Below, one piece after another: positions 25,060 through 63,377 of a stretch of DNA of 64,000 bases (the stretch's first letter is position 1; the number at the start of each line of letters is the position of its first letter). The notes beneath the pieces are model-generated. The model was not told the DNA's origin, searched no databases, and saw only the letters and a list, made by a program, of their open reading frames with translations. A program made the translations under genes and the position numbers. The stretch lies in contig NC_092674.1 of NCBI RefSeq assembly GCF_964355755.1, positions 27,764,001 to 27,828,000 on the forward strand. The letters are read 5' to 3'. Origin of the DNA: Antedon mediterranea (lineage: Eukaryota; Echinodermata; Crinoidea; Comatulida; Antedonidae).

Positions 25060-28000
25060 ATGGCGTTGTCGAGAAATAAGAGCTACGTTCATGCCCCAGG
25101 TCTAAAGCCCTTTATTGGGCTGACGATGCACGAAATGTTGGAAGAGAGAGTGAAGAAAAATCCGGACAGAGAAATGCTTATCTTTGTCGGCGATAATGAA
25201 CGAGTTACGTTTGCTGAATTCAAGAAAAGGGTAAGGGATATGCATTGCACATTAGGCTACCAGTAACATAACGAGAATATCTTATGTGAATTATACGTGC
25301 TGCATGCGTAAATATGTCTTTCTATGTCTTCCTATTCTATACTATTTTGTGGTTTTTTCATCAAGCCAGTAGAGTACAAAGTATTTTGGAACATATAGGG
25401 CCTAATTATGGTTACATTTTAAAAGCCATGGTTTGTCTAAATCTTACAATCGGATGTCATAATGGAATTCATTCTTATTTCAGGTAATAGACTTAGCAGC
25501 CGGGTTCTTACTCAAACTTGGTCTTCGTCGTGGTGATCGTATAGCTGTTATAGGTGCTAATCACGTAGAATGGCCCCTTATTACAGGTGCAGCGAGAGCA
25601 ATAGGCGTCGGTGTAGTATGTACCCCAATAACATCATATTATTTTAATGAATCAAATTATATGTTACGTTGATCTCCTAAACTATTATATTTTTTATTCT
25701 TAAGAAATAAATTTGAATTGATAAAAAATATATATTTGCTTTTATTCAGGCTAATCTGCTGCTTGGTCATACTCCTGAAACTTTTAAGAAAATAATGACA
25801 AAGGTATGTTCAATTTTGTTTCTTATGATTTTGAATTGATAATAATTTTTACACACGTACTTGATATAGAATCCGCTTATACTTTTTATATAAGGCTGTG
25901 CTTTTATTTTAAATTCGTTTCTGTTATTCTTTAGGACACCCTATTATGAGGATATATTCCTGTGTGAATCGCATGAGTGTAACACTCGGCCCACCCCTAT
26001 TCTGTGAGCATTCCTATTATAAATGGAACGTTTTTTAGCTGTCCGGGCCCTTATTAGTGGTTCTGCTCTAATTCTGAACGGGTTTATCCTATTCGAACGA
26101 GTATGTGATCCATAATAATAAACTCCTATTTCAAAGGTACCATGCAAAGCGCTGTTCATAACTCGCAGCCCGGACACACTTTACCAAATGGCTTGTGAAA
26201 TGATTCCAGAGTTAAGTGAAAGTATTCCAGGTGACCTAAATTCAAAACAGTGAGTACATTTATAAATTGAATTCACACATGGCTACTTACGAATCATATT
26301 TACTTTTTACACACTTTTATAAGCACCGTCATTTGGTTTGTTGTTTTTGTTTGTCTTTGTTTTTAGGTTTCCTGACTTAAAGAATGTCATAGCCGCTGGT
26401 GTAAATTGTAAAAGGTAAGTAGGCCTACTACATTTAGTAAAAAATGATAATAAGAAAAGGTTATCCTAATAAGTATAAAGACAAACCAGCCCAAAATCCA
26501 ATCCTGCACCCTCTGTAGTTGACAGTAGTAGACAATCTTTTTCAGTGGAACGTTGAATTTCGATGACCTATCTATTTCTGGATGTGAGGAAGAAGTAGCC
26601 AAAGCGGCCAAGAAAGTAACAATTGATGACATTAGCCACATTAACATGACATCGGTAAACAATAGTTTCAAACTTGCCTTTTCAATTTGTTCAATCTAAA
26701 TACATTTCAAAATAAACATAATGAAGTAGTTTTCACATTTTTATTTAATTCTTATGCTCTGTGTACACAATTAAAACGTTATGTGACACAAAATGTGCCC
26801 ATATATGGACAAGATGACGTCATATCACTACCATATTAGGGCACGTTACACTTTTTTGTCAAATGGTTTGATAGTTTAGACAAAGCTTAAGATGAAAATA
26901 AAATGTCAAGAAAACTATTAAATTCAAATCCTGTTTTAATGTATCCTGTATAACAGTACGATCAATGTTATACACGCTCTAAAGCGTGGTTCCCACTAGC
27001 GACGCAACGCAAGGACGTAACGCAATGCAAGTGAATTGACCAATCACAAGCGATGGCTTATTCGCTTGTGATTGCTAACTGTCTACTTCGCTTGTCATTG
27101 GTTAAAACGCTTGCGTTGCGTTTACGTCCTTGCGTTACGTTCTAGTGGAAACCAAGCTTTACGTACCAGGCCTTATACTTTTAAGTTATCGTCAAATTCA
27201 AATGTTTTATAGAGTAGTCAAGCCCGAAAACGATCTAAACTAATTCAGTTCATGGAATTTTCTGTTTCCAAAGGGTACAACTGGATCACCAAAATTGGCA
27301 CCGTACACCCATTTCAAAACTCTCAATGGTACCGTTTTTGTGCCAGATCAATTTGACGAAACACAAGTAGGTATTTATATATTGGTCATTTATTTAATGG
27401 AACGTTAAGTGAAACATTGGTAATGATGAGGCTACAAATGTGCATAGCGAGTTAACAAACAAAACAATGATAATGGTGAGGACGTCAACTGACGACGGCA
27501 ACCGAGTCGACGATGATGACAACTTTTAAGGCATTGTATTCAACGTAGTTGTCAACAACGTGTTGATATATATAAGACAATGAAAAATAAATTAACGTAC
27601 ACACTCGAAGATTACAGCGAACACGCTAACGAAAATGACGGATACGCTGATAAGAAGATGATTATGATAACGAAACTAATACGTAAATGTAATGATAGTG
27701 ATAATGGTAAATGTCGACACTAAATTCACTTTATAATACAGATCAATAAATTAGCATGTATCGGCAACATGGCGTACATTGTAGCAACGCAATTTAGTCA
27801 AGTAGCGCCACTCCTATACGGTACAACTTCAGTGTTTCCTTCACCAACCTATACATTTGAAAAGTTCATTCAAGCTGTCGAAGCCGAGAGGTAAAGTAGT
27901 TTTAAATAACAAGAATTCACAAACGCGAAACTTAACTATATAACGTTTACGTTTGATAATTATTGGTTTCATTAATGGCAGTTACGAAGCTGAGACACGA

Positions 28001-30744
28001 ATATACTGTGCATGAGGCGTATAGCCGTATTAATCTAATGAATTATATCGATGATTGACCTAAAATAATTATCTTTTTTTTAGAATCACCTTTTTCTTGT
28101 TGATGGTTGATGGTGTGGTTAATCTTGCGCATAATCCTATTTGTGACAAGTACGACCTGTCTTCAATAAAATCAGGTAATTGTAGTGTACATAAGTTTAA
28201 ATGATATAATAATGTAAAGAGGTACGTTACATCTAAGTATTACCGACTTATAAGGCAGAACATTATAATAAGTATATAAAAACAATGTCTATTTTTGATA
28301 AAAGGTATAACCGGTGGTTCACCTGTTCCGCCAGACGTTATTTTTGAGTTGCACAAAAAGTACGGAATTCGTCTGTTGGTAAGTTGGTCAAGGGATAAGT
28401 GAGATCTCTCTTCTTCAATGCATATTGACTATAAGCCTGTTTTCTCCCAGGATACAGCAGAGGTGAATTTTAAGTGGAGGACTTAAGAAGCAAGTAATCC
28501 ATGCTGTGGGGCCATGGGGATGTCACAGGCACCCACCCAGTGGGGTCAAGGGAAGCTGACTTGCTAGAGAATATAGGTCGTTTCCTGGTTTCGCCCCTGC
28601 ACACATATAATAATGGGTGACGAAACATTTAGTGTTAGTACTTGTGTTTCTTTTTTTCTCTAGAATTTGTATGCGTCAACGGAAACTAAAATCAGCTCGT
28701 TAACAGTCAATGACAGTCCAGTTGTTTGGAATACATCAGGCCGCCCCTTGCCCAATACTGAAGTAAGCCTAATATATTATCTTTGTCCCAACTATGTCAT
28801 CCCATTCATACAGCATTTAACTGTGTAGCCATATTATACAATAAATCGTACATTTTCAGATTCAAATAGTTGATAAAGAAGGCTGTCCCGTAGAAGTCGG
28901 AGAAAAGGGAGAGATATGGGTACGAAGTCCAGATGCCTTCAAAGGTTACTATGGTGATATTGAGAAAACAAAACAGACGATCACTGAACACGGATGGATT
29001 AAAACAGGGTACTATCACAACTGTTATATTTACTTAACAAGTCAAGTAAACATTAATTTGTTAGTAGACCTATGAAAAAATGTAATGTTAACTTTAATGT
29101 TGAATTTTTGTTTGAAATATTTTTCAGAGATGTTGGTAAACTAAGTGCAGATGGCTACCTGACAATCGTTGGTCGAATTAAGGTATTGAAATTGAATCGA
29201 TACATTGAATATAACTTACAATCCTTTCTTCCCGTGTGAATACAACTTCTGACTAATCTTCTGTTTCAAAAGTAAACGTGTCGAGAGATATTTGATTACA
29301 TTGACAGATTAACACGTTGAAATTATTTTATTTTCAGGAGATAATTATCAGAGGTGGTTTCGATATTTACCCATCAGAATTGGAAGGTTTAGTAATAACG
29401 CATGCAGCCGTAAACAGTGCGCAGGTAAATGTATAACATAACAATCTTTCTACACATGAGCCTACAGCCCCAGAATTGGATTTGTTCTCCAGGGCGGTAT
29501 AATTCTTCCATGATTTAGGAAAAGTGTACATCGTGTATGATACCACCAAACTTTCGAGTAAAAAAACAAGATTGTAAGGCAGTTTGCCTATTCATCAAAT
29601 GCCTCACAATCTTGATTTTAACTCGAAATGGTACAGTATTTAAAATGAGTTTAAATCATGGAAGTTTGGTTTTTTTTATCACAGGTTTTAGGAATTCCAG
29701 ATTACAGGATCGGTGAAGATGTGTGCGTATGTGTTACGTAAGTAATATTTTCATCTGTTTTTCATAAATTAGTGTTTTTTAAGGAAAATGGTAAAAAGTA
29801 AATTGTATTTCAAGCCAAACTAAAGTTGGTTTATGCGGTTAAATAAAGACTTCCAAAACAAAATTATACTACATTAAAAAAAAACACGAAACATTTAATT
29901 TATTATTTCAGATTAAATGAAGGTTGTAATGTCACCGAAGAAGAACTAAAATCATTCTTTGCTGGAAAGGTATAATAAAAACCTCAAGTTATATCGAATA
30001 AAATGAAGACTTATGTTTGAAGTTTGTAAAAACTGGTTTGATTTCCGAAACTTTACTTTCTTATGTCAAGTTTTGTTGTTTTTTTTTTCTTCAGATGTCG
30101 GATTTAATCCAGCCGTCTTACTTTCTAATTGTTGACTCTTTCCCATCTGGTGCTACTGGAAAGGTAATGTTTGACGTGCCTTTGTGTTTTTTTAATAATT
30201 ACATGCGTATATTTTTATCAATAGAAATATTGAATAGAAGAATGTATCGATATAATATACTTGTATAACATATCTTGCGACCGATAACAGCAAAGTGATT
30301 GACCTGAGACGTCATTGGCAACGAAAGTTTTCCGAAGTTTGCCAGTGACGTAGACAGGAAAGACTCGACAGAAAGTAGAAAGTAGTAGACGGCTAGTTTG
30401 CAGGAGTTAAGTCGTGAACCAAACAAGTTTGCTGATGTTTGTGAATTCAGCGACATAAAGACTGCTTTTGCAGTCACGTGATCCTCCAGAGACAACTCCT
30501 CTAGTAACTAGTCTAGAACTTCTTAAAAAATGGGCAAACTTTGTCAAAAGTCATTTTCAGGAAATTATGCCTAAATCCAAATTTAGACTATGTCAGCTAA
30601 TTTCTACTATATTAACATTTTTGCCAAAAACGTTATTATAATTTAAGTAATGTAAATTGTCATTTACAGGTGGACCGTAAGAAGTTGCAAGAGATGGCTA
30701 TTGGTAGAATTAAATTACCAGACAATCTATATGCCGACAAATAA
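25060..30744 (+). CDS. ACS-1: ACSF2-like acyl-CoA synthetase (ANL superfamily), 18 exons, intact
   Basis: Predicted ATP-dependent carboxylate:CoA ligase (acyl-AMP, then acyl-CoA). Exons: 25060-25230, 25484-25615, 25750-25803, 26137-26249, 26367-26414, 26546-26654, 27274-27366, 27742-27890, 28084-28175, 28305-28378, 28664-28762, 28860-29008, 29128-29182, 29338-29424, 29685-29737, 29912-29969, 30095-30163, 30670-30744. All are GT-AG with phases shared by every copy; total 559 aa. Motifs: P-loop TSGTTGSPK (~208-216), A5 NLYASTE (Gly replaced by Ala), A7 KTGD (~426-429), A8 GRIKEIIIRGGFDIYPSELE and A10 ATGKVDRKKL with catalytic Lys ~535. N-terminal SYVH...LKPFIGLT and PDLKNVIAAG match ACSF2. ACSF2 usually carries a mitochondrial presequence; this protein starts right at the conserved region, so a cytosolic place is possible. 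The A4 catalytic His position holds Tyr (~252). Exon 11 is one codon shorter than in its sisters. The substrate is unknown. Confidence 0.93.
26751..26890. mobile_element. Foldback repeat, GTCTACAC family, in ACS-1 intron 6
   Basis: It contains TGTGCCCATATATGGACAAG and CATATTAGGGCACGTTACAC with the end TTTGATAGTTTAGACAAAGC. It sits between exons 6 and 7 of ACS-1 and is absent from the same intron in ACS-2, ACS-4 and ACS-5, so it inserted after the duplications. Confidence 0.75.
26981..27161. mobile_element. MITE, GTTCCCACTAG family, in ACS-1 intron 6
   Basis: AAAGCGTGGTTCCCACTAGC at the left pairs with CTAGTGGAAACCAAGCTTTA at the right. Inside, GACGCAACGCAAGGACGTAA is inverted against GTTTACGTCCTTGCGTTACG, so most of the element folds back on itself. 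No ORF. Confidence 0.85.
29505..29664. repeat. 160-bp imperfect foldback in ACS-1 intron 14
   Basis: CTTCCATGATTTA at the left pairs with TAAATCATGGAAG at the right. The inner arms TCGAGTaaaaaaaCAAGATT and AATCTTGattttaACTCGA pair, with TGTAAGGCA / TGCCTCACA close to the loop. It could be a MITE or a hairpin in the intron transcript. Confidence 0.75.
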
Positions 30745-31926: not shown

Positions 31927-34900
31927 ATGGCCTGTTCACGAAATGAGAGCTACGTCCATACCCCCAGTCTGAAGCCCTTTATTGGGCTGACGATGCACGA
32001 AATGTTAGAAGAGAGAGTGAAGAAAAATCCGGACAGAGAAATGTTTGTTTTTGTCAGCGATAATGAACGAGTTGGATTTGCTGAATTTAAGAAAAGGGTG
32101 AGCAACTTTTATCAATATAACTAGCAATGTTCTCCTTGTTTTAAATGTATTAACCTTTAGGTGATCCTGCCTTATTGATTCACTTTTGTAATGTGTTTAT
32201 GTCTTATTTGTACTGTATTTGAAATGTGCGAAATAAATGATATATTATGGTATTATATATGACATTGTAACATTAAATGTTCGGACCGGCTAGCTCAAGA
32301 TTTGAGTGAAAATCACTGCAAATCCACTGGTGAATACCGGTTATAGAGTAGACAGATGGTTTGTCAGTGACTGTATATAATTTAAACGTACTTACGTATA
32401 TTATTATAACTAATTAACATTTATTAATTATTCTTTTATTCAGGCAGCTCATATCTATATTATATTCTAACTTATCTCCACGTACTCTCACTCAATGGAA
32501 CACTCGTCTACGACCCTAAAATCATTTAAACATAATCTTTTAAAGATAACATAATATAACATTTAAATATGTATTTATATACTGTACATACTATTGTAAA
32601 AACGTTGTTGACATTGTATTCGTATTTTGTGTATATGTACAGTAACGGGCCATGTGTTGATCTGGGCCTCCGTAATTAAATAAGTTGAATTGAATTGAAT
32701 TGACCTCAATATTACAATGGAAGAACTTTATACTTTCTATTATTTTCATTTCGTTTTCAGGTAATAGACTTAGCAGCCGGGTTCTTATTCAAACTTGGTC
32801 TTCGTCGTGGTGATCGCATAGCTGTTTTAGGCGCTAACCATGTAGAATGGCCCCTTATAACGGCTGCAGCAAGAGCTATAGGAGTAGGTGTGGTAGGTAC
32901 CCCAGGCTATTATATATATATAAATTTTAAACTGACTGAAATTATAGTTTGTATTTCGACTATAAAGCTTGTTTCCCACTAGAATGTAACGTAAGGACGT
33001 AAGCACAACACAAGTATGACCAATCACAAATGATAGATTATTCAACTGTCGCTTGGATTATTGGCCAATTCGCTGTCGTTGCAGTTACGTCGTCGTGTTG
33101 CATTCTAGTAGGAACTAATCCTTAGAAATAGACAAATCAATGTAATTTATGCAAGAATTTGCGGTCAGTATAAATAAAATAATAATAATTACATTTATTT
33201 TTATTTTAGGTTAATCTACTACTTGGACATGCTACTAAAACTTTCCACAAAATAATCTTGCAGGTATATTCTTTACTGTCTTGCCGATATGCATAATTAT
33301 GATATTGAATAGTATAAGGATGTTTAACTTCTAGTATCATTTTATTGGAGTGGGATGACCCTGTAATCGACAATTACGCCTATATTTATAATGCCATCAT
33401 TGTTCACAGGTATCGTGCAAAGCGCTGTTCATAACTCGTAGCCCTGATACACTTTACCAAATGGCTTGTGAAATGATTCCAGAGTTAAATGAAAGTATTC
33501 CAGGGGACTTAAATTTAAAACAGTAAGTATACATTTTGATAATAAATTAGCGACTATTTTAATCAATCGTTATAATGCGTTGACGGTTATATGCTAGCTT
33601 GCTTACCGTAATACGTACCGTTTTTATTTTAGGTTTCCAGACTTAAAGAAGGTTATAGCTGCTGGTTCTAATTGTAAAAGGTAAGTACTTTGCTTTAAGT
33701 AAATAAAAGGTAGGCTTAAATATATGTATAAAAAAAAGCTATACAAACATTAACAAAGTTAGAAATAAATAGGCAGTGACGTTAGTGATCAATTTATTTC
33801 AGTGGAACATTGAACTTTGCCGATATATCTATTTCTGGATGTGAGGAAGAAGTAGCAAAAGCGGCAAAGAAAGTGACAATTGATGACGTCAGCCACATTA
33901 ACATGACATCGGTAAACAATAGTATTACAGAAAAAGACAATTGCAATCACTGGGTGCAAACTATTCTATTTTTGTATGTGAAATTCAAATGTAGACCTAG
34001 CTATCTGTTTCAAAAGAACGTTTTATTTGCATAACAAAGTATCAAACTAACTCATTGGTTGTCGTGCCTGATTTATGACAAGATTAGGCCTATAGGTCTT
34101 TAAATCATGTTTTAAAATTTAACCTAATATTCACATTTTAATGTATGGTTTTTATTGCCTACCATAGGGCACAACTGGATCACCAAAATTGGCATCATTT
34201 ACTCATTTTCAGGCACTCCACAGCAACCTCTTTGTACCAGGTCAATTTGACGAAACACAAGTAGGTTCAATATTTTAGTTTCTGGTTGATGTTCATATAC
34301 CGTACCGCACCGTATAACATAGGACCGATCGTCATTTATGACAAGGCACATTTGGTGGTGTTGAATTGGAGGACGATTATCGAACGGAACCACATCAAGA
34401 TGATGGCGAGAAGAATGGCAAAAATGATGGTGATGACAGACAGACAGAAGTCACATGTGATGACGATTATGACGGAATGACAATGATTAAAACAATAATC
34501 ATTTTATTCAATATTATTTCATTTTGTACTTAAGGTAAATAAATTGGCATGCCTCGGTAACATGGCATATGTTGGAGCGATGAATTTTAGTCATCTAGGG
34601 CCACTTATATTCGGTACAACGTCAGTGTTTCCTTCACCAACCTACACATTTGAAAAGTTTCTCCAGGCTGTCGAAGTAGAAAGGTTGAGTACACCACAAT
34701 TAAATTGACAACGAGTTTGAAACATTACTGTTGAAATGACTGCCATTATCAGTTTGAAGGCACTAGTCTGGATTCCAGACAGACGGAGTTTAGAATATAT
34801 TAGGAAAAAGATAAATATTTTGGCACATATGGCCTTCCATACGGATACTACTTGAGCTTGTAAATTTGTATTTTCAGACAAAAATCAAAACGTCGACTGG

Positions 34901-37563
34901 TAGACTAACATAAAAATGACAATAAATACAGACTTGGAGCAAGGCCATAAAGGCATCTGCCAAATTGTATACTGTTTATCTGTTACACTGCCATTCACTA
35001 TTTGTTCAACTATTCAAAGTTTAATATGCGACTTTTTTTAGATGCACCTTCGTATTGTTGATGATCAATGGTGTGATCGATCTTGCGTATAATCCTATTT
35101 GTGATAATTACGACCTGTCTTCATTGATATCAGGTAGTCTTTAGAATAATTATATAATATATATGAATACCCTGTAAAAGTATGACCGATCTATTTCACA
35201 AAGAATCGATAAGAGTATTATTTTTTTTTAATAAAAGGTATAACCGGTGGTTCGTACATTCCGCCAAGTGCTATGATCAAGTTGCATGAAAAGTATGGAA
35301 TTCGTCTATTGGTACGTACTGTATTACTATTAGTATTAGTACTATGGGTACGTATTGCATTACTATAATACTGTAGCTATATTGTGAACTTCTTTTATGC
35401 GCGAAAAGCACTGACACAACCGATTCTCGTACAGTATTACAATCGTACAGTGTCGTGTTTGCTGACGGGAAACAGCGGCCGTATTCACCAATCAATTATA
35501 CATAAGCTAGATATTTTCCTTAAATATTAAGTGTTTCCCTTAAATTGTATTCAATTAGATAGGAGATTTTTGTAATAAGGCTGTTTCCATTAGCCTAAAT
35601 GTAAATGGTAAATACGGCCACAGGCTCCTAACTATTACTACCCTTCACCAAACCCACTAAAATATCGGTAGAAATGATAGCGCTCGTATCGAGTAGCACT
35701 GAAGCAATAGCAAATTCATTTTAAATATTATATTTATATTATTAATGTGTTTTCTGTTGCATCAGAATGCTTATGGGTCAACAGAAACCACAACCATCAG
35801 CTCGATGACGGTTAATGACAGTCAGGACGTTTGGAATACAACAGGCCGCCCCTTACCAAATACTGAAGTAAGGCATAATAGATAGAGTTCCTGTATCATC
35901 CTGTTCATAAATTACTGTAATGTATAGCAACACTATCTGAAATTCTACATTTACAGATTCAGATAGTTGACGAAGAAGGATGTCCCGTTGAAGTGGGAGA
36001 AAGGGGAGAGGTATGGGTACGAAGTCCGGTTGCGTTCAGTGGTTACTATGGTGATATTGAGAAAACAAAAGAGAAAATCACCGAAAACGGATGGATTAAA
36101 ATGGGGTACTATAGCACAACTTGTATTTTTACATAATAGACTCAAGTATATGTCAAATTTTAAAGAATTGTTGTAGTGGGCTTATGAAACATATCACACT
36201 ATAAAGTTCTTCTAAAATTCCTTTTTCAGAGATGTTGGTAAGCTAAGTGAAGATGGCTACCTGACAATAGTCGGTCGAATTAAGGTACTGAAGTTAAATC
36301 TATACAATATACCATTTAACTTGTTCCTTTTGTTATAACAGCACCTCTTAAGTCTCAAGAGTAAACCCTTTGGGTGATGTTTTTCTTGCATTGATGTATG
36401 AGTGTTGTTACAATGTTTGATCTCAGTTAACAAGCTTTAAATGTTATTCTTTTCAGGATATCATTATCAGAAATGGTTCCAATATCCATCCATCAGAAGT
36501 GGAAAGTTTAGTAATAACTCATCCAGCCGTAAACATTGCGCAGGTAAAGTGTATAACATTGTGTGTAGGCCAATCCTGCACAATTTCAAAACGCTGGAGA
36601 ATTTGTAGGAACTGAAAGATAATTTGTATATTTTTTAAACTAGGCCTAAATGGGTTTTTTTTCAGGTTGTAGCAATACCGGATTACAGGGTCGGTGAAGA
36701 TGTGTGTGTATGTGTTAAGTAAGTAGGCATATATGGATTTTTTCTACCAAAACTAAAATTTGTATTATGAAAATCAGAACTAGGCTTATTTTCTTTCTTT
36801 TAAGTGAAATAAACATTACTTACAGGTAATTCAATATTTAAACTAATTAACCTTTTAACGTAAATTATTACATTTTTGCAATTAAAATAAATTATTATGT
36901 TTATGATTTCAGATTAAATGAAGGTTTCAATGTAACCGAAGAAGAACTGGAAACTTTCTTTGAAGGAAAGGTATAATAGCGAATAATAATACAAACAACA
37001 AATAATTATATTTTAAACTTTTTTCGAATCTTCACTTCTTTACGTTAATCGAACTTTTATTTCAGATGTCAGATTTAATCAAACCATCTTACTTTCTAAT
37101 ATTTGTCTCCTTCCCAAACGGAGCTTCAGGAAAGGTACTGTTTGCCGTGTTTTGTAATTATTAATTACAGTAGGCATATGTTTATTTTTTTAATCGAATC
37201 GATAAATGATTACGTCATGACAACAAGCCGGTATAAAACCAATATTCAAAGACATTTTCGATATGTAAAATGGTATTTGTGGTAATCAATCGACATACCA
37301 CTAGAAGCCATGTTGTCTTTAGTAGTAGGACTCTCCAAAACTAGTTTAACTCGACCGTTAATATAACCATATACACCAGTGATATAAAATAAACGATACC
37401 ACCAGAATCGACAAATTTATACCGAGTTACGTTTAAATATGTAATTTATTTAAAATCCTGTAATCAACAAAATTATCATTTCCAGGTGGATCGTAAGAAG
37501 CTGCAAGAGATGGCTATTGATCGAATTATATTACCTGATACGCCTTATGAAGAGTCGCAATAA
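31927..37563 (+). CDS. ACS-2: ACSF2-like acyl-CoA synthetase, 18 exons, intact
   Basis: Exons: 31927-32097, 32761-32892, 33210-33263, 33410-33522, 33633-33680, 33803-33911, 34168-34260, 34535-34683, 35042-35133, 35238-35311, 35766-35867, 35957-36105, 36230-36284, 36457-36543, 36666-36718, 36913-36970, 37066-37134, 37486-37563. Lengths and phases match ACS-1 except exon 11 (one codon longer) and exon 18. Total 561 aa. Motifs: TSGTTGSPK, a canonical A5 NAYGSTE, A7 reading KMGD (Thr replaced by Met), A8 GRIKDIIIRNGSNIHPSEVE with its conserved Gly (~454), and A10 ASGKVDRKKL with catalytic Lys. The A4 position is Tyr (~252), as in ACS-1. Its exon 10 (GITGGS) groups it with ACS-1 rather than with ACS-4/5. 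An AATAAA at 37603 follows the stop by about 40 bp and may be the poly(A) signal. Start ATG chosen because conserved similarity begins at once (ESYVHTPSLKPFIGLT). Confidence 0.93.
32440..32705 (+). mobile_element. LINE 3' end (CR1/L2-like tail) in ACS-2 intron 1
   Basis: A short reading frame at 32470-32550 resembles the C-terminus of CR1/L2-type LINE proteins (LSPRTLTQWNTRL and, in another frame, SFKHNLLKIT-stop). A non-coding tail follows, ending in TTGAATTGAATTGAATTGA, a pentamer repeat as in L2-type elements. It is strongly 5'-truncated and frame-broken. Confidence 0.6.
32963..33124. mobile_element. MITE, GTTCCCACTAG family, in ACS-2 intron 2
   Basis: AAAGCTTGTTTCCCACTAGA at the left; TCTAGTAGGAACTAATCCTT at the right. 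It contains 'gaccaatcacaa' as in the ACS-1 intron 6 copy. It inserted at a different intron, so it is an independent event. Confidence 0.75.
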
Positions 37564-39761
37564 GTTATTCAATCCAAACTGTAATACTTCCATTAAGCAC
37601 AAAATAAACTTAACCTCAAAACCTTTGTTGTTTTTATTTACTAACAGACTGTTTATTTTAATGATTTTATCAATGTCATGGTACATAATTAGGCTTAGCT
37701 AGTTGTTGTAGAGATGACGTCATAATATATGCATATTTTATCTCACAATCACGTTTAGACTCTATTGTGACAATGATTTCGATTTCTCACGATTTTCACA
37801 GAAAAAAAAGTACCTTTAATTGCACTGGAGAACAGAATGAAATCGCACAGATTTTTATCGGTTTTTTTTTAATAATACCGTAGCAACAGATGGAAATGGT
37901 GAACCTGGTAATTTAATTTATTGTCAACTATTTGGCATTCCGTCCTTTACAATTGTGCGGGTCTATAGTAAACGTTATCTATTCCAGCGTACATTTAGTA
38001 TAATATTTAAATCCATATATCAGTATTAGTATAGTATGTCTAAAATCGCCTTGTCGCGAAAAAAGAGTTACATCCATACTAGTCTGAAACCCTTTATTGG
38101 GCTGACGATGCACGAAATGTTGGAAGAGAGGGTGAAGAAAAATCCGGACAGAGAAATGCTTGTTTTTGTCAGCGATAAAGAACGAGTTACGTTTGCTGAA
38201 TTCAAGAAAAGGGTGAGTATTAAAACGTGAGCAAGTTTGCATAATATAGTGCAATATATAGTGTAAAGTAAACTTTTATAGGCCTACGATACGTTTGTTT
38301 TTTTTAATGGAGCACAATGTTTTCCGGAACCATGCAATAATAATGATGCACGAATTCAACGCGTGGAAACGTTATAGACACGAAATTGATTAAACTTTAT
38401 CTTGCGTTTTCGGCTGGGTAACAGTAAGTCTGATTTACATGATTGAAAGAGTCATACGTTTGCATATTGCTAAATCTTAAAAATATGGAGCAACACAAAT
38501 ATGGGTGTTGCTCAATAATTTAACTTTGATCGTATAGCTGTTATAGGTGCTAACCATATAGAATGGCCGCTTATTACAGGTGCAGCGAGAGCTATAGGCG
38601 TCGGTGTGGTAGGTACCCCAGCTATTATACTACAATATAATAATCAAATTTATTTTCTAAAAATAACCAAAAATGTATAATCTAAGTTCCGAATATTTTT
38701 TTTTTCTTCAGGCTAATCTGCTTATTGATCATACTCCTCAAACCTTTAAGAAAGTAATGAAACAGGTATGAATTATTTATCAAAATAATTCCATTTGTTT
38801 CCTTTATATTGAATATTGATGTAGTAATTTTGACACTTAGGCTACAATAGCAATATATTATATCACAAATCACAAAATTTATTAGTATAATTTCTTTTTA
38901 ATTTTTACGGCAATAAACTTTAGACGTTGTTTGGGAGTGTCTTTGGCACAGATATATATGGTGACTCAATTATGATAGTATGATTGATATGATTTCATGA
39001 TATAAATAGATAAATGATATTATTCAGGTGTCGTGCAAAGCGCTGTTCATAACTCGTAGCCCGGACACACTTTACTCAATGGCTTGTGAAATGATTCCAG
39101 AGTTAAGTGAAAGTATTCCAGGTGACCTGAATTCAAAACAGTGAGTATTGGACAATTTGAATATTTAATTATTTTACATTGACGATTCATGTACATAGGT
39201 TTATGTTGACTACTGTTTTTTGTAGGTTACCAGACTTAAAAAAGGTCATAGCCGTTGGTTCAAACTGTAAAACGTAAGTAATTATTATAAAATAAGCGTT
39301 TAGGAATTTATTTAAAAATGGAAAAACAGTTTAGATAATAAAAAAGCAACTTAGTAAGAGATCACTTTTATGAGCAAATTGTTTTCTTTCTTTTTCAGTG
39401 GAATGTTGAATTTCGATGACATATCTATTTCTGGATGTGAAGAGGAGCAAAAGCGGCCAAGAAAGTCACAATTGATGACGTCAGTCATTTTAATATGACA
39501 TCGGTACGAAATTACTATAATCAAAAAGATCTATTTGCTTAACAAAAACATAAGAACAGAAATTAAGTCCACAATCTCACATATTTTATTTTAGATTCTC
39601 TATTTCTACAGGGCACTACTGGATCGCCGAAATTGGCAACGTATACACATTTCCAATCACTCAATGCCACCATGTTTGTGCCAGGTCAATTCGACGAGGG
39701 AAAAGTAAGTTAAAATCGTAGGTTTTATAGGTGCTATGACGACACGAAGATATTATAAGTT

Positions 39762-39936
39762 AAGGGTAATCCACACCTGTTCCGACACGGTTCCGGTCTG
39801 GCGCCGAAAAATCCAATTTACGCGGATACGCGCATATCGATTGGTGCATATCCGCGTGGAGCGTCGTAAAAATAAAACATTGATGTTCGATTCGCCGGAC
39901 CGGAACCGTGCCGGAACAATTGTGAAATACCCTTTA
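39762..39936. mobile_element. 175-bp MITE with ~40-bp TIRs, inside ACS-3
   Basis: The left arm AAGGGTAATCCACACCTGTTCCGACACGG... is inverted against the right arm ending CCGTGCCGGAACAATTGTGAAATACCCTTT. GC-rich inner arms (CGGTCTGGCG / CGCCGGACCGG) and a central pair ATACGCGCATATCGAT / GCATATCCGCG are seen. A TTA or TA on each side may be the target duplication. The frame at 39736-39945 is only this element. Confidence 0.85.
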
Positions 39937-39974
39937 GGATGTTAAGATGACGATGAGGAGAAGACACTGATGCT

Positions 39975-40123
39975 TAACTAATGTCTACACTATCAAACTA
40001 TTTTAACAAAAATAAATCTGATGTGCCCAAATATAGTAGGGATATGCTTAAATGTGGTAGTGATATGACATCATCATATACATATATGGACACATCACGT
40101 TTGGTAGTGTAGATAGACCTTAA
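39975..40123. mobile_element. Foldback repeat, GTCTACAC family, inside ACS-3
   Basis: AATGTCTACACTATCAAACT at the left and GTTTGGTAGTGTAGATAGAC at the right. The core GATGTGCCCAAATATAGTAG lies in the opposite order relative to the copy at 6787-6920. Confidence 0.75.
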
Positions 40124-40214
40124 GATAGCAGTAATAAATGGCAACTGCCTAAGATTCCAACGGATGGATAACCTATTTTATAATTTATCGTACTTATAAT
40201 AAACTCTCATTCTC

Positions 40215-40337
40215 AGTCTCATTTGAGGCTGAGGGAGTGGAGTTGAAAAAGTCGTTAGTTACAACCTTGTCACTAGGTCAGGATTGAAACCCCGGACCTT
40301 AGGATCGGAAGGCAAGCACCAAGCTACAGCTCCACTA
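40215..40337 (-). mobile_element. tRNA-derived SINE fragment, GTGGAG family, copy 1
   Basis: The minus strand has GTGGAGCTGTAGCTTGGTGC (box A-like) and GGTCCGGGGTTTCAATCCTG (box B-like), then a body ending TTCAACTCCACTCCC. A related copy is at 57486-57596. No intact tRNA fold, so not a tRNA gene. Confidence 0.6.
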
Positions 40338-47200: not shown

Positions 47201-50091
47201 AGCTTGCCTCTACAACACGATCCATAGTTTAGTAATGCAAATGAGTCAAGTAGCGCCACTTCTTTTCGGTACAACTTCAGTGTTCCCATCACCAGCCTAC
47301 AACTTTGACAAGTTTATTGAGGTTGTCGAAGCTGAAAGGTAAAATAGTGTGGAACGAACGAAGAGAGTAAAAAATGGATTTAAAATATTAACTTTGCTAT
47401 TCTATTAATTATTAAATATATTTATTTGCACATCAGATGCAGTAGATACGAATATGAGTGAAAACACATCGTTATGACTAGGCTATAATTTTCAGTTTGA
47501 AGGTGCGCATCATGCGCACGTCAAGTGATAATAGTCGCATAAAACAATGCAATGTTTATAATGAATTGTATCGATGACCAATCTGAAATTCTTTTTTAGA
47601 TGTACCTTTGTCTTTTTGGTTATTGATGGTGCAGTTGATCTTGCCTATAATTCTATATGTGACAAGTACGATCTGTCTTCATTGAAATCAGGTAATATTA
47701 TAGTTTACTGTTATTGAAAATAATAATAATATTACTATGATAAGTACATTACACTACTGAGAATTGTACGTTACTGAGAATCGAAACATACTTGTTTTGT
47801 AATAACAGGTTTTGCGGCTGGTTCACCCATTCCGTCAGATATTATTTTCGAGTTAAATAAAAAGCGTGGAATTCGTTTGTTGGTAAGTACGTAATTTAGG
47901 TTCTGGCGGCGATTCAACTTAATATAGGTAAACACGATTATGGCATACATGGCGTGTCATACGGAATGATCTAAATCACATAATTATGGACAAAAACCAA
48001 ATAAATACTAACAGAATAACAAATAGAATAGCTTAGGCTCTTAATCTTATTTTTCTTGGACGTACAAACAACAAGTTGTATCAATCGCTACAAGTGTTTT
48101 GCTTTTTATTAGAATCTTTATGGAGCAACAGAAGCCCCCCGAGTCAGCTCGATGGTAGTCGATGATAACCCGGATGTTTGGAATACATCAGGCCGCCCTT
48201 TCCAAAATATAGAGGTAAGACAAATTATCTTTGTTTCAGCTTGTCATTCCATTCTGTTTATAAACTTTGATGTATAATAGTACTATTAAATGAATCCTAC
48301 AGCTTCAAATAGTTGATGAAGAAGGCTGTCCCGTAGAAGTGGGAGAGAAAGGAGAGGTTTGGGTACGAAGTCCGCTTGCGTTCAGAGGTTACCATGGTGA
48401 TATTGAGAAAACAAAACAGACGATCACTGAAAACGGATGGATTAAAATGGGGTACTATCACAACTTTTATATAAATTTACTAAATAGATACAATATTAGT
48501 AAATATTCTTACTCCTATCACATTTATACAATATTTTTTTTCAGAGATATTGGTAAGCTAAGTGAAGATGGCTACCTGACAATAGTTGGTCGAATTAAGG
48601 TACAGGAATTAAATACATATTTTCATCTTTTGCTTCTCGTGAATATCATTTCAGAACAGCCTATCGAATACCACGATTAGCTTGGAAGTCTGAAAAAATG
48701 TAACAATTAGGGGAATTTATTTATTTATTTTCTTGCAATACGCTGACACGCTTGTTAAAAACAATGTTACATTGATTATTTGACAATTATTTTATTTTTA
48801 GGACATAATTATCAAAATGGTTTATAAAATCCATCCATCAGAAGTGGAAAGTTTAGTAATAACTCATCCAGCCGTAAACAGTGCACAGGTAGGTGAATTG
48901 TCTTTAGTAATGTTACTGCGCCATTGCCATAGTTACATGGTTTTATGCTCCGGAGAACAAGGCATGTAAAGTGTATCACAAAGAAACCTACATTCAATAC
49001 TATTAATACTGCACGGTTGTAAGCCGACCCTATAAATAATTTAGAAAAATACTCTACGCTTCTGCCTAAGTATTGCTTCAAGTCTTATTTTGATAATGCA
49101 GCGTTTTTCTTTTTCTTTTCACAGGTTGTAGCTATACCAGATTACAGAATCAATGAAGATGTGTGTGCATGTGTTAAGTAAGTATAATTTTGTTACTAAA
49201 AATGTTCGTTTATGCAGTTTAAAAATAAGTATAAGCAAGTTACTATGTAAATCCAATAAATATAATTTGGTTTTTTTAATCGATGTATTATTTCAGATTA
49301 AATGAAGGTTACAATGTCACTGAAGAAGAACTGAAAACTTTCTTTGAGGGAAAGGTAGACAACCTCAAGTTATATCAAATAAATACAAGAAGTTATTACT
49401 CGTACTTAATGCTTGCAAAGCAACTGATACCGAAACCTCCGTGTTTGATAATCAGTTTTGTTTTATGATTTTTTTTTAGATTGCAGATTTAAAGAAGCCG
49501 TCTTACTTTCTAATTTGTGACTCCTTCCCAACAGGTGCTACAGGAAAGGTGAGTTACTTTATAGTGATTGTTACCCAAAGTAAGTTATTGGTTATGTTGG
49601 GTAATTATAAGTTTAATAATATACAAATAGTAGGCCTACATATATATCTCTTAAAAAATGTACTTCCATCGCGCGCGAAAAACCGCGAAAGTCATAACAT
49701 TAACATTCGCGACGAAAGTACAAAATAGGTGGCGCTGTTGTATTTCAAAAGCAATAGTATAAAATAATATTTTCCAAACGCGAGCAGATTTTTTTTTCGT
49801 ACACGAAAAAGTACTATTAAATGATCGTTTAATAGTGCGTACTATTGCACGCCATGTGACCCACAATCGTCCAATCAAATGACAGGAATTTATTTAGGTG
49901 TTATATAAAAGTTTTAATGTGAATGCACACAATATAATTAATAGATCATCCTTGCTATAATAGATTTCAACATGCCATTTAGATCGTGTCATTAACAACC
50001 TAATTATTATTTACAGGTTGATCGTAAGAAGCTACAACAGATGGCTATTGGTCGAATTAACTTACCAGACAATCCATACCGAACAAAGTAA
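44204..50091 (+). CDS. ACS-4: ACSF2-like acyl-CoA synthetase, 18 exons, intact frame, altered core motifs
   Basis: Exons: 44204-44374, 44761-44892, 44976-45029, 45163-45275, 45751-45798, 46283-46391, 46585-46677, 47190-47338, 47600-47691, 47809-47882, 48113-48214, 48303-48451, 48545-48599, 48802-48888, 49125-49177, 49297-49354, 49480-49548, 50017-50091. Total 560 aa, frame open throughout. Motifs: P-loop TSGTTGLPK (Ser replaced by Leu), A4 position His (~252, NTIH), A5 NLYGATE, A7 KMGD, A8 reading IIIKMVYKIHPSEVE in which the conserved Gly (~454) is Val, and A10 ATGKVDRKKL with catalytic Lys. Loss of the A8 Gly could weaken the thioester-forming half-reaction. Exon 10 (GFAAGSPIPSD) groups it with ACS-5. 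Intron 4 holds a LINE end, intron 5 a tRNA-like sequence and intron 7 a 21-bp tandem array. Start ATG chosen by identity with ACS-1 (ALSRNKSYVHTPSLKP). Confidence 0.92.
44547..44635. repeat. 89-bp foldback in ACS-4 intron 1
   Basis: GTATACCAGAGAAGAGTGAA pairs with the inverted TTTGACTCCTCTCTGAGTATGC, and ATTACAATTT with AAAATTGTAAT. Imperfect palindrome with an AATTTCA-rich loop. Confidence 0.7.
45331..45720 (+). mobile_element. LINE 3' end in ACS-4 intron 4
   Basis: A short frame reads KVWNNLPILLQ and then, after a stop, FKYKYKT, as at the C-terminus of Jockey/CR1/L2-type LINE proteins (WNNLP...FK..LK). An AT-rich tail ends in AATAAAGAAATAAA. Truncated and inactive. Confidence 0.5.
46043..46115 (+). 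mobile_element. tRNA-like sequence, probable SINE head, in ACS-4 intron 5
   Basis: Box A-like TAGTCGAGTGGATAAGAC and box B-like GGGGTTCGACTCC are spaced as in a tRNA. Acceptor pairing is poor and a body of about 120 bp follows, so I favour a SINE relic over a working tRNA. Confidence 0.45.
46843..47130. repeat. 21-bp tandem repeat (TATGACGACGACGAATACGCT) in ACS-4 intron 7
   Basis: About a dozen units, the last several nearly perfect. The unit length is a multiple of three, so both strands stay open: an Asp/Tyr-rich frame on + (46886-47137) and a Val-rich frame on - (46874-47194). It is inside an intron and low in complexity, so I do not call a protein. Related GAY-rich sequence fills the same intron in the sister genes. 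Confidence 0.9.
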
Positions 50092-55860: not shown

Positions 55861-58800
55861 ATGGCGTTGTCGCAAAAGAAGAGCTACGTGCATGCCCCAG
55901 GTATGAAGCCCTTTATTGGGCTGACGATGCACGAAATGTTGGAAGAGAGAGTGAAGAAAAATCCGGACAGAGAAATGCTTGTTTTTGTCAGCGATAATGA
56001 ACGAGTTACGTTTGCTGAATTCAAGAAAAGGGTGAGAAGTTTATGTACATCTGTACGAATGAAAACGCAGTCATTGTTCTACCGTTACCGTATAATATGA
56101 CGTTTTTATTGTATAATGTATTACGTGACCGTGCATTTCTAAATTTCATGGTAAAGCTTTTTACAAGTTTTGGAGAACCAATGTATGTAGTAATAATAGT
56201 TTAAAACGACAACAACTGTGCTTTTTGTCTCCTAACGTTACTTCAAATTATTATAAATGTACAACTCCTTACTTTTTCTTCAGGTAATAGACTTAGCAGC
56301 CGGGTTCCTACTCAAACTTGGTCTTCGTCGTGGTGATCGTATAGCTGTTATAGGTTACAACCACGTAGAATGGCCCCTTATAACGGCTTCAGCGAGAGCT
56401 ATAGGAGTTGGGGTGGTAGGTATCACAGATTATATATTTATGTCATATCAGTAACTAATTTCAAGCTCTTATCTCTGTTTAATGTAATTTTTACCTAAAA
56501 TAATTGCATTTTCTTTTCAGGCTAATCTACAAATTGGTCATACTCCTGAAACTTTTAAGAAAATATTGACAAAGGTATGTATCATATGTGTTTTAATAGG
56601 TTTCTCAATTAGTATTGTCTCATTATTGTATTGATGCAATAACCATATATACATTATCTGTTAACCCTCGGCTGTGATCCAGAATAACAATATTTGGAAA
56701 AATACTATTTCACAGGTATCGTGCAAAGCGCTGTTCATAACTCGTAGCCCGGACACACTTTACCAAATGGCTTGTGAAATGATTCCAGAGTTAAGTGAAA
56801 GTATTCCAGGTGACCTGAATTCAAAACAGTGAGATATATATTTTTCAATTTGTCAAAAGGTTAATTTCTATATAATGCTTACTCTACTTTACTGATATAG
56901 GTAGAATATATCTACCTAAATATGTTTGTAATTGTATAAGCTACCTATAAGTTGTTATTTTAAAATCATTGTGGCTCCCTTACATCACAAAACACATTAG
57001 TCAAATCAAATGTATTCACCTCCCTTAGGAGAAACATTTACAAAACTGTTATCACATCAAAATGAAGATTCACACGAGTCAAAAGATTAAAATGGTTTTA
57101 ACATGTTAAATAAGGTGTAAACGCCATCACAGATACCATGATTGACACAATCCACAGATTTATACATTTTTAAAAGATTATGACGTTATGTACTATTAAA
57201 AACAATATTACAAATAGAAAGTCTTTGCTTATATACGGTATTATTATAATATACTTTTGATGATTTCTCTAGGTTCCCTGGATTAAAGAGTATCATAGCC
57301 GCTGGTTCAAATTCTAAAAGGTAATAAAGAAACACTTTGTATAAATCATTTCTTATTATGTGTATTTATTTATTTTTTATCATATTTAATGAGGTTGATC
57401 AATCCACCAATTGCTGATCAATAGGGACCCTCAGAGGTTCACAAGACAAACATATACACACGATGCTCTACATAAACAAAGTCTTTGGGAGTGGAGTTGT
57501 AATTTTGTCCTTAGAAAAAATCCTGACATGTGACGGGACTTGAACCCAGGACCATTGGAGTGGTAGCCAAGCATCATAAGCCACAACTTCACTCCTAATT
57601 GTATAAGTCCAGAGTCCACATATATCTTGATTTTCTAGTCTTCTCATCTGCTGACAGTAAATGTTATCTTATTTTCAGTGGAACGTTGAATTTCGATGAA
57701 ATATCTATTTCTGGATGTGAGGAAGAAGTAGCAAAAGCGGCGAAGAAAGTCACAATTGATGACGTCAGCCATTTTAATATGACATCGGTACAATTATTGT
57801 CGGATTTATCATAATTTATAATTTATTTATCGCCCTAAGTTGAGAATAATTTAAAACCTAATCAGGATTTTCACGTTGTTTACATTAAATCTAAGATAGA
57901 AAAGTCTGTTTAAGATTTAGATAATCTTAATGGATTAATGATTGCCAATCCCGGAACTTGAGCTTATGTTTGTTTTCTATTCTACAATAGGGCACAACTG
58001 GAACACCCAAATTGGTACCGTATACTCATTTCCGAACACTCAATGGCAACCTCTTTGTACCAGATCAGTTTGACGAGAGAAAGGTAGGCTAAATAGAGAA
58101 TTTGCAATGTTAGTGCTCATATTACACCAATATTATATAAACTTCACTGGCTTCCAATTAAACAACGAATTATTTTTAAACTAATGTTAATTACATATAA
58201 ATCTCTTCACGACAAATCACCATCATATATTTCCAATTTAATTATACGTAGATCTTAAGTGTGTAAAAGATCTCTCATCCATCTGCACTTTTTGTTCCAC
58301 CCAGCCGCCTATACTGTGGAATAATCTTCCTGATCCTATTATCAAAACACTCTTAAAACCCATCTTATTTCTTTGTAATGTCTTTCTGTTTTTTCTCTCA
58401 GCGCTTTGGGATAATCTTTTGATTGTGTAAGCGCTATATAAATCGAACAACATTAACATTATAAAACACTAAACAAATTCTTTATATTAAAGGTAAACAT
58501 ATTAACAGGTGTTGGTAACATGGCCCACATTGTACCAATGCAATCGAGTCAAATAGCGCCACTTATATTCGGTACAACTGCAGTGTTTCCTGCACCAATC
58601 TACAACTTCGAAAAGTTAATTCAGGCTGTCGAATCTGAAAGGTAAAGTAGTGCGCGAAAGGTAAAGTGTGCGCGAAATATTAAAACAAAAATGTATACGC
58701 GCACAATTTAACGAATTGAAATACGTTTGCTTATAATTTATTCCTACGCCAGTTACAGTAGATACGAAACTGAGACGTAACAAGTTTGAAGGTGCGTGTC

Positions 58801-61691
58801 AAAAAGTGCATCACTGTGCGTCAGGTGAACATAAAACCATGCATCGTTTCTTTTAACGAAGTATGTTGTTGACCGATCTAAATTATTTTTTAGAATCTCC
58901 TTTTTCTTGGCGAGGATTGATGTTGCCGTTAATCTTGCGTATAATCCTATGTGTGATAATTACGATCTGTCATCATTAAAATCAGGTAATAGTATACCAT
59001 GGTTACAATAAGCAGGTACATTTTGTAAACGTATAATTACCGAATTAAACCACAGAATCGAAAAATTATAAGTACCTATTTGTTTTTTAATAACAGGTTT
59101 TGCCACTGGTTCACACATTCCGTCGGATATTATTTTCGAATTAAATAAAAAGCGTGGAATGTGTGTGTTGGTAAGTAAGTATTTTAGTAGTAATATATCC
59201 AAGTTATAGATGGCGATTTAACTTAATATTTGTAATGAAAGAAGTCAGAAACTGAGTGAAGTACTTTGCAAAGTATATTAAAGAAAACTACATTCGGAGA
59301 TAGAGCTCGCACTACTTGATAATAGTGTTAAAAGAATACAAAGGGTGTGCTATTTGATATCGAGTATGAAAGATAAATGTAAGTAATATTTCAATACAAT
59401 AAGCTTGTCTGACTGACGAATATATCATTTTTCATGAAAATCAACAGGCATGTTCCAACAAAATTAGGCCTGCTATATATAGTATTGAACCGCGCCATAC
59501 GTCTGTGCATTCTACAAACCTTTGACTACTTTTGTATTTTATGTATACTCGAATAAAATTAAAGAAAATATCCCTGTTGTATCCTGATTGACTAATGAAC
59601 GTGTTTAACATTTTTCTATAGAATCTTTATGGACAAACAGAAACTTCCATAGTGAGCTCGATGGTAGTCGATGACAGTCCAGATGTTTGGGGTACATCCG
59701 GCCGCCCTTTTGCCAATGTTGAGGTAAGACCACGGGAAATATCTTTATTCCACATTCGTCATTATAAACTTTGATGTAAACTAATAATATTAAATTAATC
59801 CTACAGATTCAAATAGTTGATAAAGAAGGATGTTCCGTAGAAGTGGGAGAAAAGGGAGAGATATTTGTACGAAGTCCGGTTGCGTTCAGAGGTTACTATG
59901 GTGATATTGAGAAAACAAAACAGACGATCACCGAACACGGATGGATTAAAACAGGGTACTATAACAACATTTATGTTTACTTATTTTGTAATGTTTAATA
60001 TACCTATGAAAGCACAAATATAGGAGTACAGAACATGTTTTGATACAATTTTTTTTCAGAGATGTTGGTAAGATAAATGAAGATGGGTACCTGACAATAG
60101 TTGGTCGAATTAAGGTACTGGAATTAAATATACTTAATACAACTCTTTAATATAATTTAAGAACATACTACAGACCTAATCTCTGCAGAGAACTTTTCTT
60201 ACAATAACCGGTTGCATTGATCTCAGTTAACAAGCTAAAATGATTTAATTTTTAGGACATAATTATTAGAAGGGCTGATAACATTCATCCTTCAGAAGTG
60301 GAAAATTTAATAATAACTCATCCAGCAGTAAACATTGCACAGGTAAGTGTATGATGTCAATGTCCATAACAATTGGTCTTCTTTCTCTTCTTCTTTAGAA
60401 AAAAAAATGACATTTATTCATTTTTGTACGATTTTAGTACGGTTAAAACAACATCATTGCAACAACAAACAAACAACAAATCATAACTTAAATAGTGAAA
60501 GTTTGTTCTCACAGGTCATACCAATTCCAGATTACAGGATCGGTGAAGATGTGTGTGCATGTGTTACGTAAGTGTTTCTACTAAAACTTGCAAATAAGTA
60601 TATTACTAACATATGTTTTCATTTGAAGTAACAATTATTTCACAACAACAAAAGTCATAAAGAAGAAGAGAAGATAAGACAATATTTAAAATAAAATGTT
60701 ATATTTAAATTAATAATACTAGCAAACAATAAGAACGGTTGAAGTACTAAAGTATAACATTACTTTATGTAATTATATATTGCTATTTCATTTCAATAAA
60801 ACATTATTTTCCTTTCAAAACAAAGTATTACTTAATTATACAAAATAATAATGATTTATAATTATGACATTCAAATGATTATAGAAAACTAAAAGTGTTA
60901 TAATTAAAATTTCGACAATGCCTATTATTTCAGATTAAATGAAGGTTTCAATGTCACCGAAGAAGAACTGAAAACTTTCTTTGAAGGAAAGGTATCAAAC
61001 CTTAAGTTACATTAAATAAACACAATATAATTGTTCATTATTTGGAGCTTCCACAAGAACTGATTCGGTTCCCGCAACTTTCTTTTTTACTTGTGTTAAA
61101 CAATCGGCATTATTGTTTCTTCAGATTATAGATTTAATGAAGCCGTCTTACTTTCTAATTTTTGACTCTTTGCCATCTGGTGCTACTGGAAAGGTAAGCC
61201 TCCGTTAAAGTATGTTGGACTATACAATGAGAGTAATGAGTAAATTGTACAATATAGGTTCGATGCTATAGATTCACCATATTAAAATATACAATGCTTA
61301 AAGCTTACAAAATGTGACCAGAAAATGTGATATCGACACGATGAAGTCACATAACTACCATAATTATTTGGGAAATGTATTTTTCAATCTAGATTTGATA
61401 GTGTAGACAGAGCGTAAGGGCCATTAAGTGTGCGAGTAATACAATTGTATAGAATATGATCGTTGCTATATATTTACCATATTGGAATATACAATGTTTA
61501 AAGTTAGTTTAAATATGTACGCATGCACAATACAATTGTACAGAAAAGGCATTCGTTGCTATGGCTTCACCATGTTAGATCGTGTCATCAAACAAATGTC
61601 TAATTATCGTTTACAGGTGGATCGTAAGAAGCTACAAGAGATGGCTCTTGGTCGAATTAAATTACCAGACACTCTTCATTTAAATGATTAG
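55861..61691 (+). CDS. ACS-5: ACSF2-like acyl-CoA synthetase, 18 exons, intact frame
   Basis: Exons: 55861-56031, 56284-56415, 56521-56574, 56716-56828, 57273-57320, 57679-57787, 57991-58083, 58493-58641, 58894-58985, 59097-59170, 59622-59723, 59807-59955, 60060-60114, 60256-60342, 60515-60567, 60934-60991, 61125-61193, 61617-61691. Total 560 aa. Motifs: TSGTTGTPK, A4 position His (~252, NMAH), A5 NLYGQTE, A7 KTGD, A8 reading IIIRRADNIHPSEVE in which the conserved Gly (~454) is Ala, and A10 ATGKVDRKKL with catalytic Lys. Exon 10 (GFATGSHIPSD) shows kinship with ACS-4. Intron 5 holds a SINE fragment, intron 7 a LINE end. GTTCGTAAG lies 15-25 bp before the ATG, also found before ACS-6 and, altered, before ACS-1. 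The substrate is unknown; activity with CoA is less certain because of the A8 change. Confidence 0.93.
57486..57596 (-). mobile_element. tRNA-derived SINE fragment, GTGGAG family, copy 2, in ACS-5 intron 5
   Basis: The minus strand has GGAGTGAAGTTGTGGCTTAT (box A-like) and GGTCCTGGGTTCAAGTCCCG (box B), then a body ending TACAACTCCACTCCC as in the copy at 40215-40337. Confidence 0.6.
58103..58465 (+). mobile_element. CR1/L2-type LINE 3' end in ACS-5 intron 7
   Basis: The + strand reads LHWLPIKQRIIFKLMLITYK then SLHDKSPSYISNLI, a classic motif in the C-terminal part of CR1/L2/Rex reverse transcriptases (LHWLP...YK.LH...P.YL..LI). The frame then breaks and ends near GCGCTATATAAATCGAACAA, a typical tail of this group. 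Truncated, inactive. Confidence 0.85.
61319..61420. mobile_element. Foldback repeat, GTCTACAC family, partial, in ACS-5 intron 17
   Basis: It keeps the right end TTTGATAGTGTAGACAGAGC and a diverged core; the left end is not clear. Confidence 0.55.
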
Positions 61692-63281: not shown

Positions 63282-63377
63282 ATGGCCTTGTCGCAAAATA
63301 ATAGCTACGTCCATACCCCAAGTCTAAAACCATTTATTGGTCATACTCCTTGGAGTTTTCAGAAAATAATATTACAG
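63282..63377 (+). pseudogene. ACS-6: start of a rearranged ACSF2-like copy (exon 1 fused to exon 3), cut by window end
   Basis: ATG GCC TTG TCG begins a normal exon 1 (MALSQNNSYVHTPSLKPFIG). After about 20 codons it continues without an intron into the second part of exon 3 (GHTPWSFQKIILQ), followed by a donor GTAAGT at 63378. The 3' part of exon 1, all of exon 2 and the start of exon 3 are missing, but the frame is kept. Sister genes have exon 4 within 130-350 bp; here no exon 4 is seen in the 620 bp that remain. It is probably a pseudogene, but a variant gene with a longer intron cannot be excluded. Confidence 0.75.

Follow-up and report, generated by a model that had tools for sequence, protein, structure and literature searches.

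In ANL enzymes, ATP and an acid react to give an adenylate, and a second, thioester-forming step follows in which the A8 loop takes part. The A4 region contributes to the acid pocket, and the A3, A5, A7, A8 and A10 motifs have catalytic roles. Metabolic enzymes often expand in tandem, and the mammalian ACSM cluster is a tandem family of acyl-CoA synthetases whose members are mitochondrial and come from a different ACS family than ACSF2. A tandem-expanded ANL gene family is already a known kind of locus. Beetle luciferases are described as having arisen among duplicated ACS genes (PMC10798137), and a report on a vent sea anemone names ACSF2 among the expanded families (PMC9486505). The latter means that a claim that no ACSF2 expansion is in print would be wrong. 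Among the matches listed for ACSF2 and tandem, no animal gene array was evident from the title or the start of the abstract, and among those listed for ACSF2 or ACS expansion none was a leaderless ACSF2-derived array with a changed A4 motif.

The locus described here lies in a window of 64,000 nucleotides (C5:27,764,001-27,828,000) from a 354-Mb assembly of 18 contigs. Self-comparison of the window DNA showed exon-sized blocks recurring head to tail on the + strand, with repeated blocks starting at ∼25,056, 31,926, 38,041, 44,190 and 55,857 and an exon-1 piece at ∼63,278-63,340. The first unit, A01, was modelled by hand from splice sites and served as the template for the remaining units, whose models had to keep the A01 exon lengths to within 18 bases and the A01 phases, to be bordered by AG and GT (or GC) and to be free of stops. 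The resulting units are listed in Table 1 with the other features of the window.

Table 1. Array units and other features of the window, in window positions.
Feature	Position	Strand	Description
A01	25060..30744	+	Intact; 18 exons; 559 aa; all introns GT-AG; frame open; PF00501 and PF13193
A02	31927..37563	+	Intact; 18 exons; 561 aa
A03	38045..41743	+	Broken; 9/18 exons modelled
A04	44204..50091	+	Intact; 18 exons; 560 aa; A8-loop glycine to valine
A05	55861..61691	+	Intact; 18 exons; 560 aa; A8-loop glycine to alanine
A06	63282..63347	+	Exon-1 fragment of a degenerate copy running beyond the window end
Protein kinase exon	17,885-18,241	+	PF00069, 98.5 bits
Satellite array	14,036-17,530		26-base unit, ∼135 copies, 95% matches
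Paired segments	20,171-20,429 with 43,791-44,050		97%
Paired segments	21,331-21,516 with 43,580-43,768		92%
Short-period tandem repeat	46,833-47,130		In A04 intron 7
Short-period tandem repeat	61,869-62,242		Just after A05
Open frame	52,415-52,702	+	Resembles a retrotransposon remnant by eye
Open frame	2,277-2,558	-	Resembles a retrotransposon remnant by eye

A first-pass annotation of this DNA had described six head-to-tail ligase copies, of which four were intact, one broken and one rearranged, all with the same intron positions and phases. The four intact copies and the broken one are confirmed by the exon models. In A03, exons 9-14 have no match, exon 2 is truncated, exons 6 and 15 carry indels and exon 18 has an early stop. 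The sixth copy is present, but only its exon-1 fragment lies within the window; past the window edge, its exons 4 and 6 are damaged, exon 5 is matched with its borders intact and exon 1 recurs in degenerate form, and the copy reaches approximately window-extended position 65,274. The 17 intron phases are identical in A01, A02, A04 and A05, with GT-AG borders in 68 of 68 introns, and intron length varies between these four units. A chance origin of the similarity between units was ruled out by the self-comparison together with a genome search with A01.

Outside the array, whole-window repeat finding was dominated by the 26-base satellite. The annotation saw nothing else in the window that resembled a pathway partner; a Pfam scan of nine chosen frames, seven of them outside the array, gave matches in one, to protein kinases, and the kinase exon presumably belongs to a doublecortin-like kinase. 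The two frames that resemble retrotransposon remnants had no Pfam match at an E value of 0.01. The paired segments occur in swapped order at their two sites, the second of which is just upstream of A04, and are perhaps a transposable element.

The array continues well beyond the window. The genome search with A01 returned at least 89 exon matches (78 of 305 candidates scored), and the array on C5 comprises 17 units over ∼135 kb (C5:27,789,060 to 27,923,704). Eight are intact (A01, A02, A04, A05, A13, A14, A15 and A17) and nine are not (A03, A06-A12 and A16). Of the latter, A07 retains 17 of 18 exons but exon 4 contains a stop, A10 has lost four bases of exon 6 and the exon-3 acceptor, and exon 11 of A11 carries a frame-shifting indel. 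A gap of 24 kb between A11 and A12 (C5:27,857,200-27,881,200) contains no matches to A01. Three further array-type units are on C1, where B01 and B02 are intact and B03 is without a recognisable exon 18, and three on C3, where D01 is intact, with exon 18 in an adjoining stretch, and D02 and D03 are remnants. The array type thus totals 23 units, 11 intact and 12 broken. The annotated count of six holds for the window, but falls short of the 17 units on the contig and the 23 in the genome; the local tandem expansion of one family that it proposed is borne out by the exon models and the genome search.

A 51-residue exon-1 query gave 30 matches (30 of 30 candidates scored), namely 22 array-type units, seven divergent loci and ACSF2. 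A06 does not count among the 22, since only a short fragment of its exon 1 is present. The divergent loci are at C5:24.31 Mb, C5:27.65 Mb, C5:11.51-11.56 Mb (three) and C2:13.93-13.95 Mb (two). With an exon-4 query, 24 of 25 scored candidates matched; these added no locus, and the C2 pair was missed. Array-type and divergent loci together number 30 (23 and 7), many of them broken and some known from one or two exons. Four of the seven divergent relatives were modelled. E01, whose exon 18 was not found, F01 (C5:27.65 Mb) and F02 (one of the three at C5:11.5 Mb) each have 17 of 18 exons; F03, from the C2 pair, has 12 and lacks the A10 TGK.

Unmerged haplotypes or misassembly could in principle produce a false array, and the near-identity of the 5′ parts of A14 and A15 would fit such an origin. 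We consider it highly improbable. Among pairs of intact copies, dS is 0.247-0.569 in 52 of 55 and 0.099 at its lowest, the units differ in their lesions and, in the four copies compared, in intron length, they are spread over three contigs, and there are zero N in the window and in the fetched array stretches.

The genome has its own ACSF2. A search with the PRK12583 profile located a separate minus-strand gene at C5:22.41-22.42 Mb, with 13 exons encoding 600 aa, which scores 771 bits against that profile (next profile, 404) and lies below its curated cut-off of 832. We take human ACSF2 to match PRK12583, and it is on this basis that the gene is named ACSF2. The 37 residues encoded by its first exon include six K/R and no D/E, which fits a predicted mitochondrial leader. 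With a separate ACSF2 gene on the same contig, the array is a paralogue lineage and not the ACSF2 orthologue of this genome.

The array descends from the ACSF2 lineage, as judged from profiles, trees and introns. A01, the sole array copy scanned, matches PF00501 (213.1 bits) and PF13193 (39.5 bits), both above cut-off, and its best NCBIfam profile is PRK12583 (341 bits, next 304), as is that of E01 (346 bits, next 293); the curated cut-off of this profile (NF009233), 832 bits, is missed by A01 and E01 as it is by the genome's ACSF2. Amino-acid identity to the array copies is 34-36% for ACSF2 and 47-51% for E01, and is 70-92% among the array copies themselves. Prokaryotic relatives were collected as at least 80 loci from a two-pattern scan, one pattern being the A7 motif, and 63 had a usable protein. 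The remaining 17 were dropped by a length and letter rule, and most of these were frames of >800 aa from ACSF2-like matches (39-44% identity). Plasmid proteins, of which the best match listed was 32% identical, were left out of the comparison.

The animal rows, 13 of the 76 in a quick tree, formed one group (SH-aLRT 98) that fell within the ACSF2-type rows of the prokaryotes among the matches listed (98); one row, L081, had a very long branch. A careful tree of 34 rows combined 22 of 23 hand-chosen prokaryotic rows with 12 animal rows (A01, A04, A14, A17, B01, B02, D01, E01, ACSF2, F01, F02 and F03), the animal rows of both trees being all from this genome. Here the 12 animal rows grouped together with support of 100/98 (bootstrap/SH-aLRT), which places the copies in the ACSF2 clade, and the array rows with E01, F01, F02 and F03 formed a group with 100/100 support on a branch of 1.19 changes per site. 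All 11 post-leader introns of ACSF2 recur in the array at identical phase; in the alignment 10 of them coincide exactly, the other is displaced by one column next to a gap, and the array has six introns beyond those of ACSF2. In another ANL gene on C8, presumably ACSF3, AMP-binding positions 6-245 are in one open frame, and its A4 stretch, LPLHHVHG, keeps the histidine. Judged by this one-gene contrast, the introns common to ACSF2 and the array are therefore no general ANL feature. The annotation of the copies as ACSF2-like is thus upheld by the tree, the best profile of A01 and the introns, with the qualification that at 34-36% identity they are a long-diverged paralogue lineage.

In all 11 intact array proteins the ATG is located just before SYVH, and a leader of the ACSF2 type is absent at the start. 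An in-frame stop is present 3 to 66 bases 5′ of the ATG in 11 of 11 copies. Between this stop and the ATG, a potential acceptor AG is lacking in A02 and D01; the AG near the ATG in the other nine leaves room for an upstream coding exon. The predicted absence of a leader is consequently firm for A02 and D01 only. An SKL-type C-terminus, which is a targeting signal, was present in none of the 11 intact proteins. The array enzymes are probably extramitochondrial.

The catalytic residues are kept in every intact array protein (11 of 11): the A3 lysine (K of TSGTTGxPK), the A5 glutamate (E of YGxTE), the A7 aspartate (D of (T/M)GD), the A8 arginine (R of GR) and the A10 lysine (K of (T/S)GK). Other positions that are nearly invariant in the 63 prokaryotic relatives among the matches listed are changed. 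The A4 histidine, present in 63 of 63, is retained in two array proteins (A04 and A05) and replaced by tyrosine in nine; the A4 proline (62 of 63) is N in all 11; the PKG glycine (61 of 63) is L in 10 and T in one; and the NPxY asparagine (59 of 63) is found in 0 of 11. The A7 threonine is methionine in seven array proteins; A7, unlike the other motifs, was itself a scan pattern, so that its conservation in the prokaryotic rows is in part a product of the scan. The second A8 glycine (62 of 63) is kept in nine array proteins, A04 and A05 being the exceptions, and is also absent from E01 and, by eye, F01. The A4 P, H, C, F and G are kept in 10 of 10 ACSF2-clade prokaryotic rows among the matches listed; the corresponding ACSF2 motif, P-x-(Y/F)-H-C-F-G, does not occur in the array proteins or, by eye, in E01, F01 and F02, and the histidine of F03 lies in another sequence context.

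The changed A4, A3 and A7 positions could mean weak or lost ligase activity. The copies might accordingly keep ATP and adenylate chemistry and no longer make CoA thioesters, or might be binding or regulatory proteins. The V and A at the second A8 glycine of A04 and A05, the loss of this glycine from E01 and F01, and the replacements of the A4 histidine and proline, the PKG glycine and the A7 threonine would all fit, yet the A8 glycine persists in nine of 11 array proteins, the catalytic K, E, D, R and K persist in every one, and selection overall is purifying. We consider this unlikely. Since the proteins have no leader at the start and a rewritten A4 motif, ordinary medium-chain acyl-CoA ligation is likewise not to be assumed.

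The array copies are under purifying selection overall. For the 55 pairs of the 11 intact copies, the median pairwise dN/dS is 0.34 (range 0.24-0.53) at a median dS of 0.38; by exon it is lowest in exon 4 (0.15) and exon 1 (0.19) and highest in exon 3 (0.69) and exon 14 (0.59). Column entropy was compared with that of 11 ACSF2-clade rows (10 prokaryotic and the genome's ACSF2) over 533 columns, with segments drawn after a first look at variable windows; the array rows are far closer to one another than the ACSF2 rows are, so that it is the ranking within each set, and not the raw difference, that is to be compared. The A8 loop has an entropy of 0.91 in the array versus 0.10 in the ACSF2 clade, and A4 of 0.78 versus 0.50. 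The corresponding values are 0.77 versus 0.84 for the segment after A3, 0.68 versus 0.63 for the former NPxY stretch, 0.67 versus 0.83 for positions 331-345, 0.15 versus 0.94 for exons 1-2 and 0.11 versus 1.12 for exon 4. The stretches 222-233 and 331-345 say little because they are about equally variable in the ACSF2 clade. Column by column, the entropies of the two sets are uncorrelated (r=−0.06, 533 columns).

In the A4 window pN/pS is 1.06 over the 55 pairs, or 1.19 over five chosen pairs (34 nonsynonymous and eight synonymous changes), compared with 0.59 and 0.47, respectively, for the A8 loop and 0.39 overall, the pairs not being independent of one another. Positive selection was looked for among the 11 intact copies by windowed pN/pS, in A4 and in the A8 loop, and was not demonstrated; the A4 value would be explained as well by relaxed constraint as by diversifying selection.

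Fragments, intact units and units with varied lesions are interspersed in the array, which evolves by birth-and-death. Exons 1-3 do not differ between A14 and A15, nor, by eye, do the last 120 upstream bases, but exons 9-11 of the two are 85-87% identical; A13 and A01 have common sequence just 5′ of the ATG, by eye. Partial duplication or gene conversion would explain the likeness within both pairs. No exact upstream 10-mer with at least three different bases was common to six or more of the 11 intact copies within 1000 bases upstream, so that this search revealed no shared promoter element.

Such exchange, which keeps some copies alike, together with an A4-window pN/pS near 1 and the breakage of 12 of the 23 array-type units, is what would be seen if near-equivalent enzymes were kept for amount, with the variation near active-site motifs representing relaxed drift and the substrate unchanged. 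On that account A4 and the A8 loop would be expected to rank with the best-conserved segments, a place that the A8 loop does have in the ACSF2 clade. In the array they are instead the most variable segments tested, and exons 1, 2 and 4 are the most conserved; we therefore regard selection for dosage as improbable too. That the copies vary most in A4, which helps form the acid pocket, and in the A8 loop, which acts in transfer, suggests that they probably accept different acids, which would fit the different substrates suggested in the annotation. A04 and A05, by their A8 residues, would be the best candidates for altered transfer.

Thus, we propose, with a probability of about 0.6, that the array is an ACSF2-derived, probably extramitochondrial enzyme family in which acid specificity has diversified across copies through birth-and-death duplication. 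A duplicate of ACSF2 would have lost, or never captured, the mitochondrial leader exon and come to differ from ACSF2 by six introns, and long divergence would have rewritten the A4 motif and the NPxY stretch. Tandem duplication would then have multiplied the lineage, with loss of copies and local homogenisation. ATP and a carboxylic acid are the most likely ligands of each intact copy, which would form from them an acyl- or aryl-adenylate and hand this on in the cytosol, the acceptor being most probably CoA. In this scheme the anatomy, the descent from the ACSF2 lineage, the open frames, the catalytic residues, the altered motifs and the distribution of the variation are observed, and we infer the activity, substrates, acceptor, location and expression of the copies. 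More tentatively, and on balance doubtfully, the ∼30 ACSF2-derived loci may constitute an animal adenylating subfamily that left the mitochondrion, with the A4 histidine mostly replaced and the A8 loop variable, and that activates acids beyond ordinary fatty acids, some copies perhaps using an acceptor other than CoA, as a combinatorial metabolic toolkit. Other animals may well carry the same subfamily.

Among known systems, ACSF2 is the closest to the array. It is the nearest clade in both trees, its post-leader introns recur in the array in 11 of 11 cases, its profile is the best match of both A01 and E01, and it has the two ANL Pfam domains that A01 has. Unlike ACSF2, the array proteins have no leader exon at the start, are 34-36% identical to it and are encoded with six extra introns; PLYHCFG of A4, NPxY and PKG are rewritten, and the A8 loop is variable. 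A catalogue label such as 'ACSF2, mitochondrial-like' would mislead as to location and perhaps as to substrate. The ancestral ACSF2, divergent paralogues and a recent array with common introns are present in one genome, and the passage from a mitochondrial fatty-acid enzyme to a diversified family can therefore be tested one copy at a time. The beetle luciferase and ACS genes are likewise tandem ACS duplicates, among which function has changed (PMC10798137); the beetle system is an insect ACS locus and the array belongs to the ACSF2 lineage.
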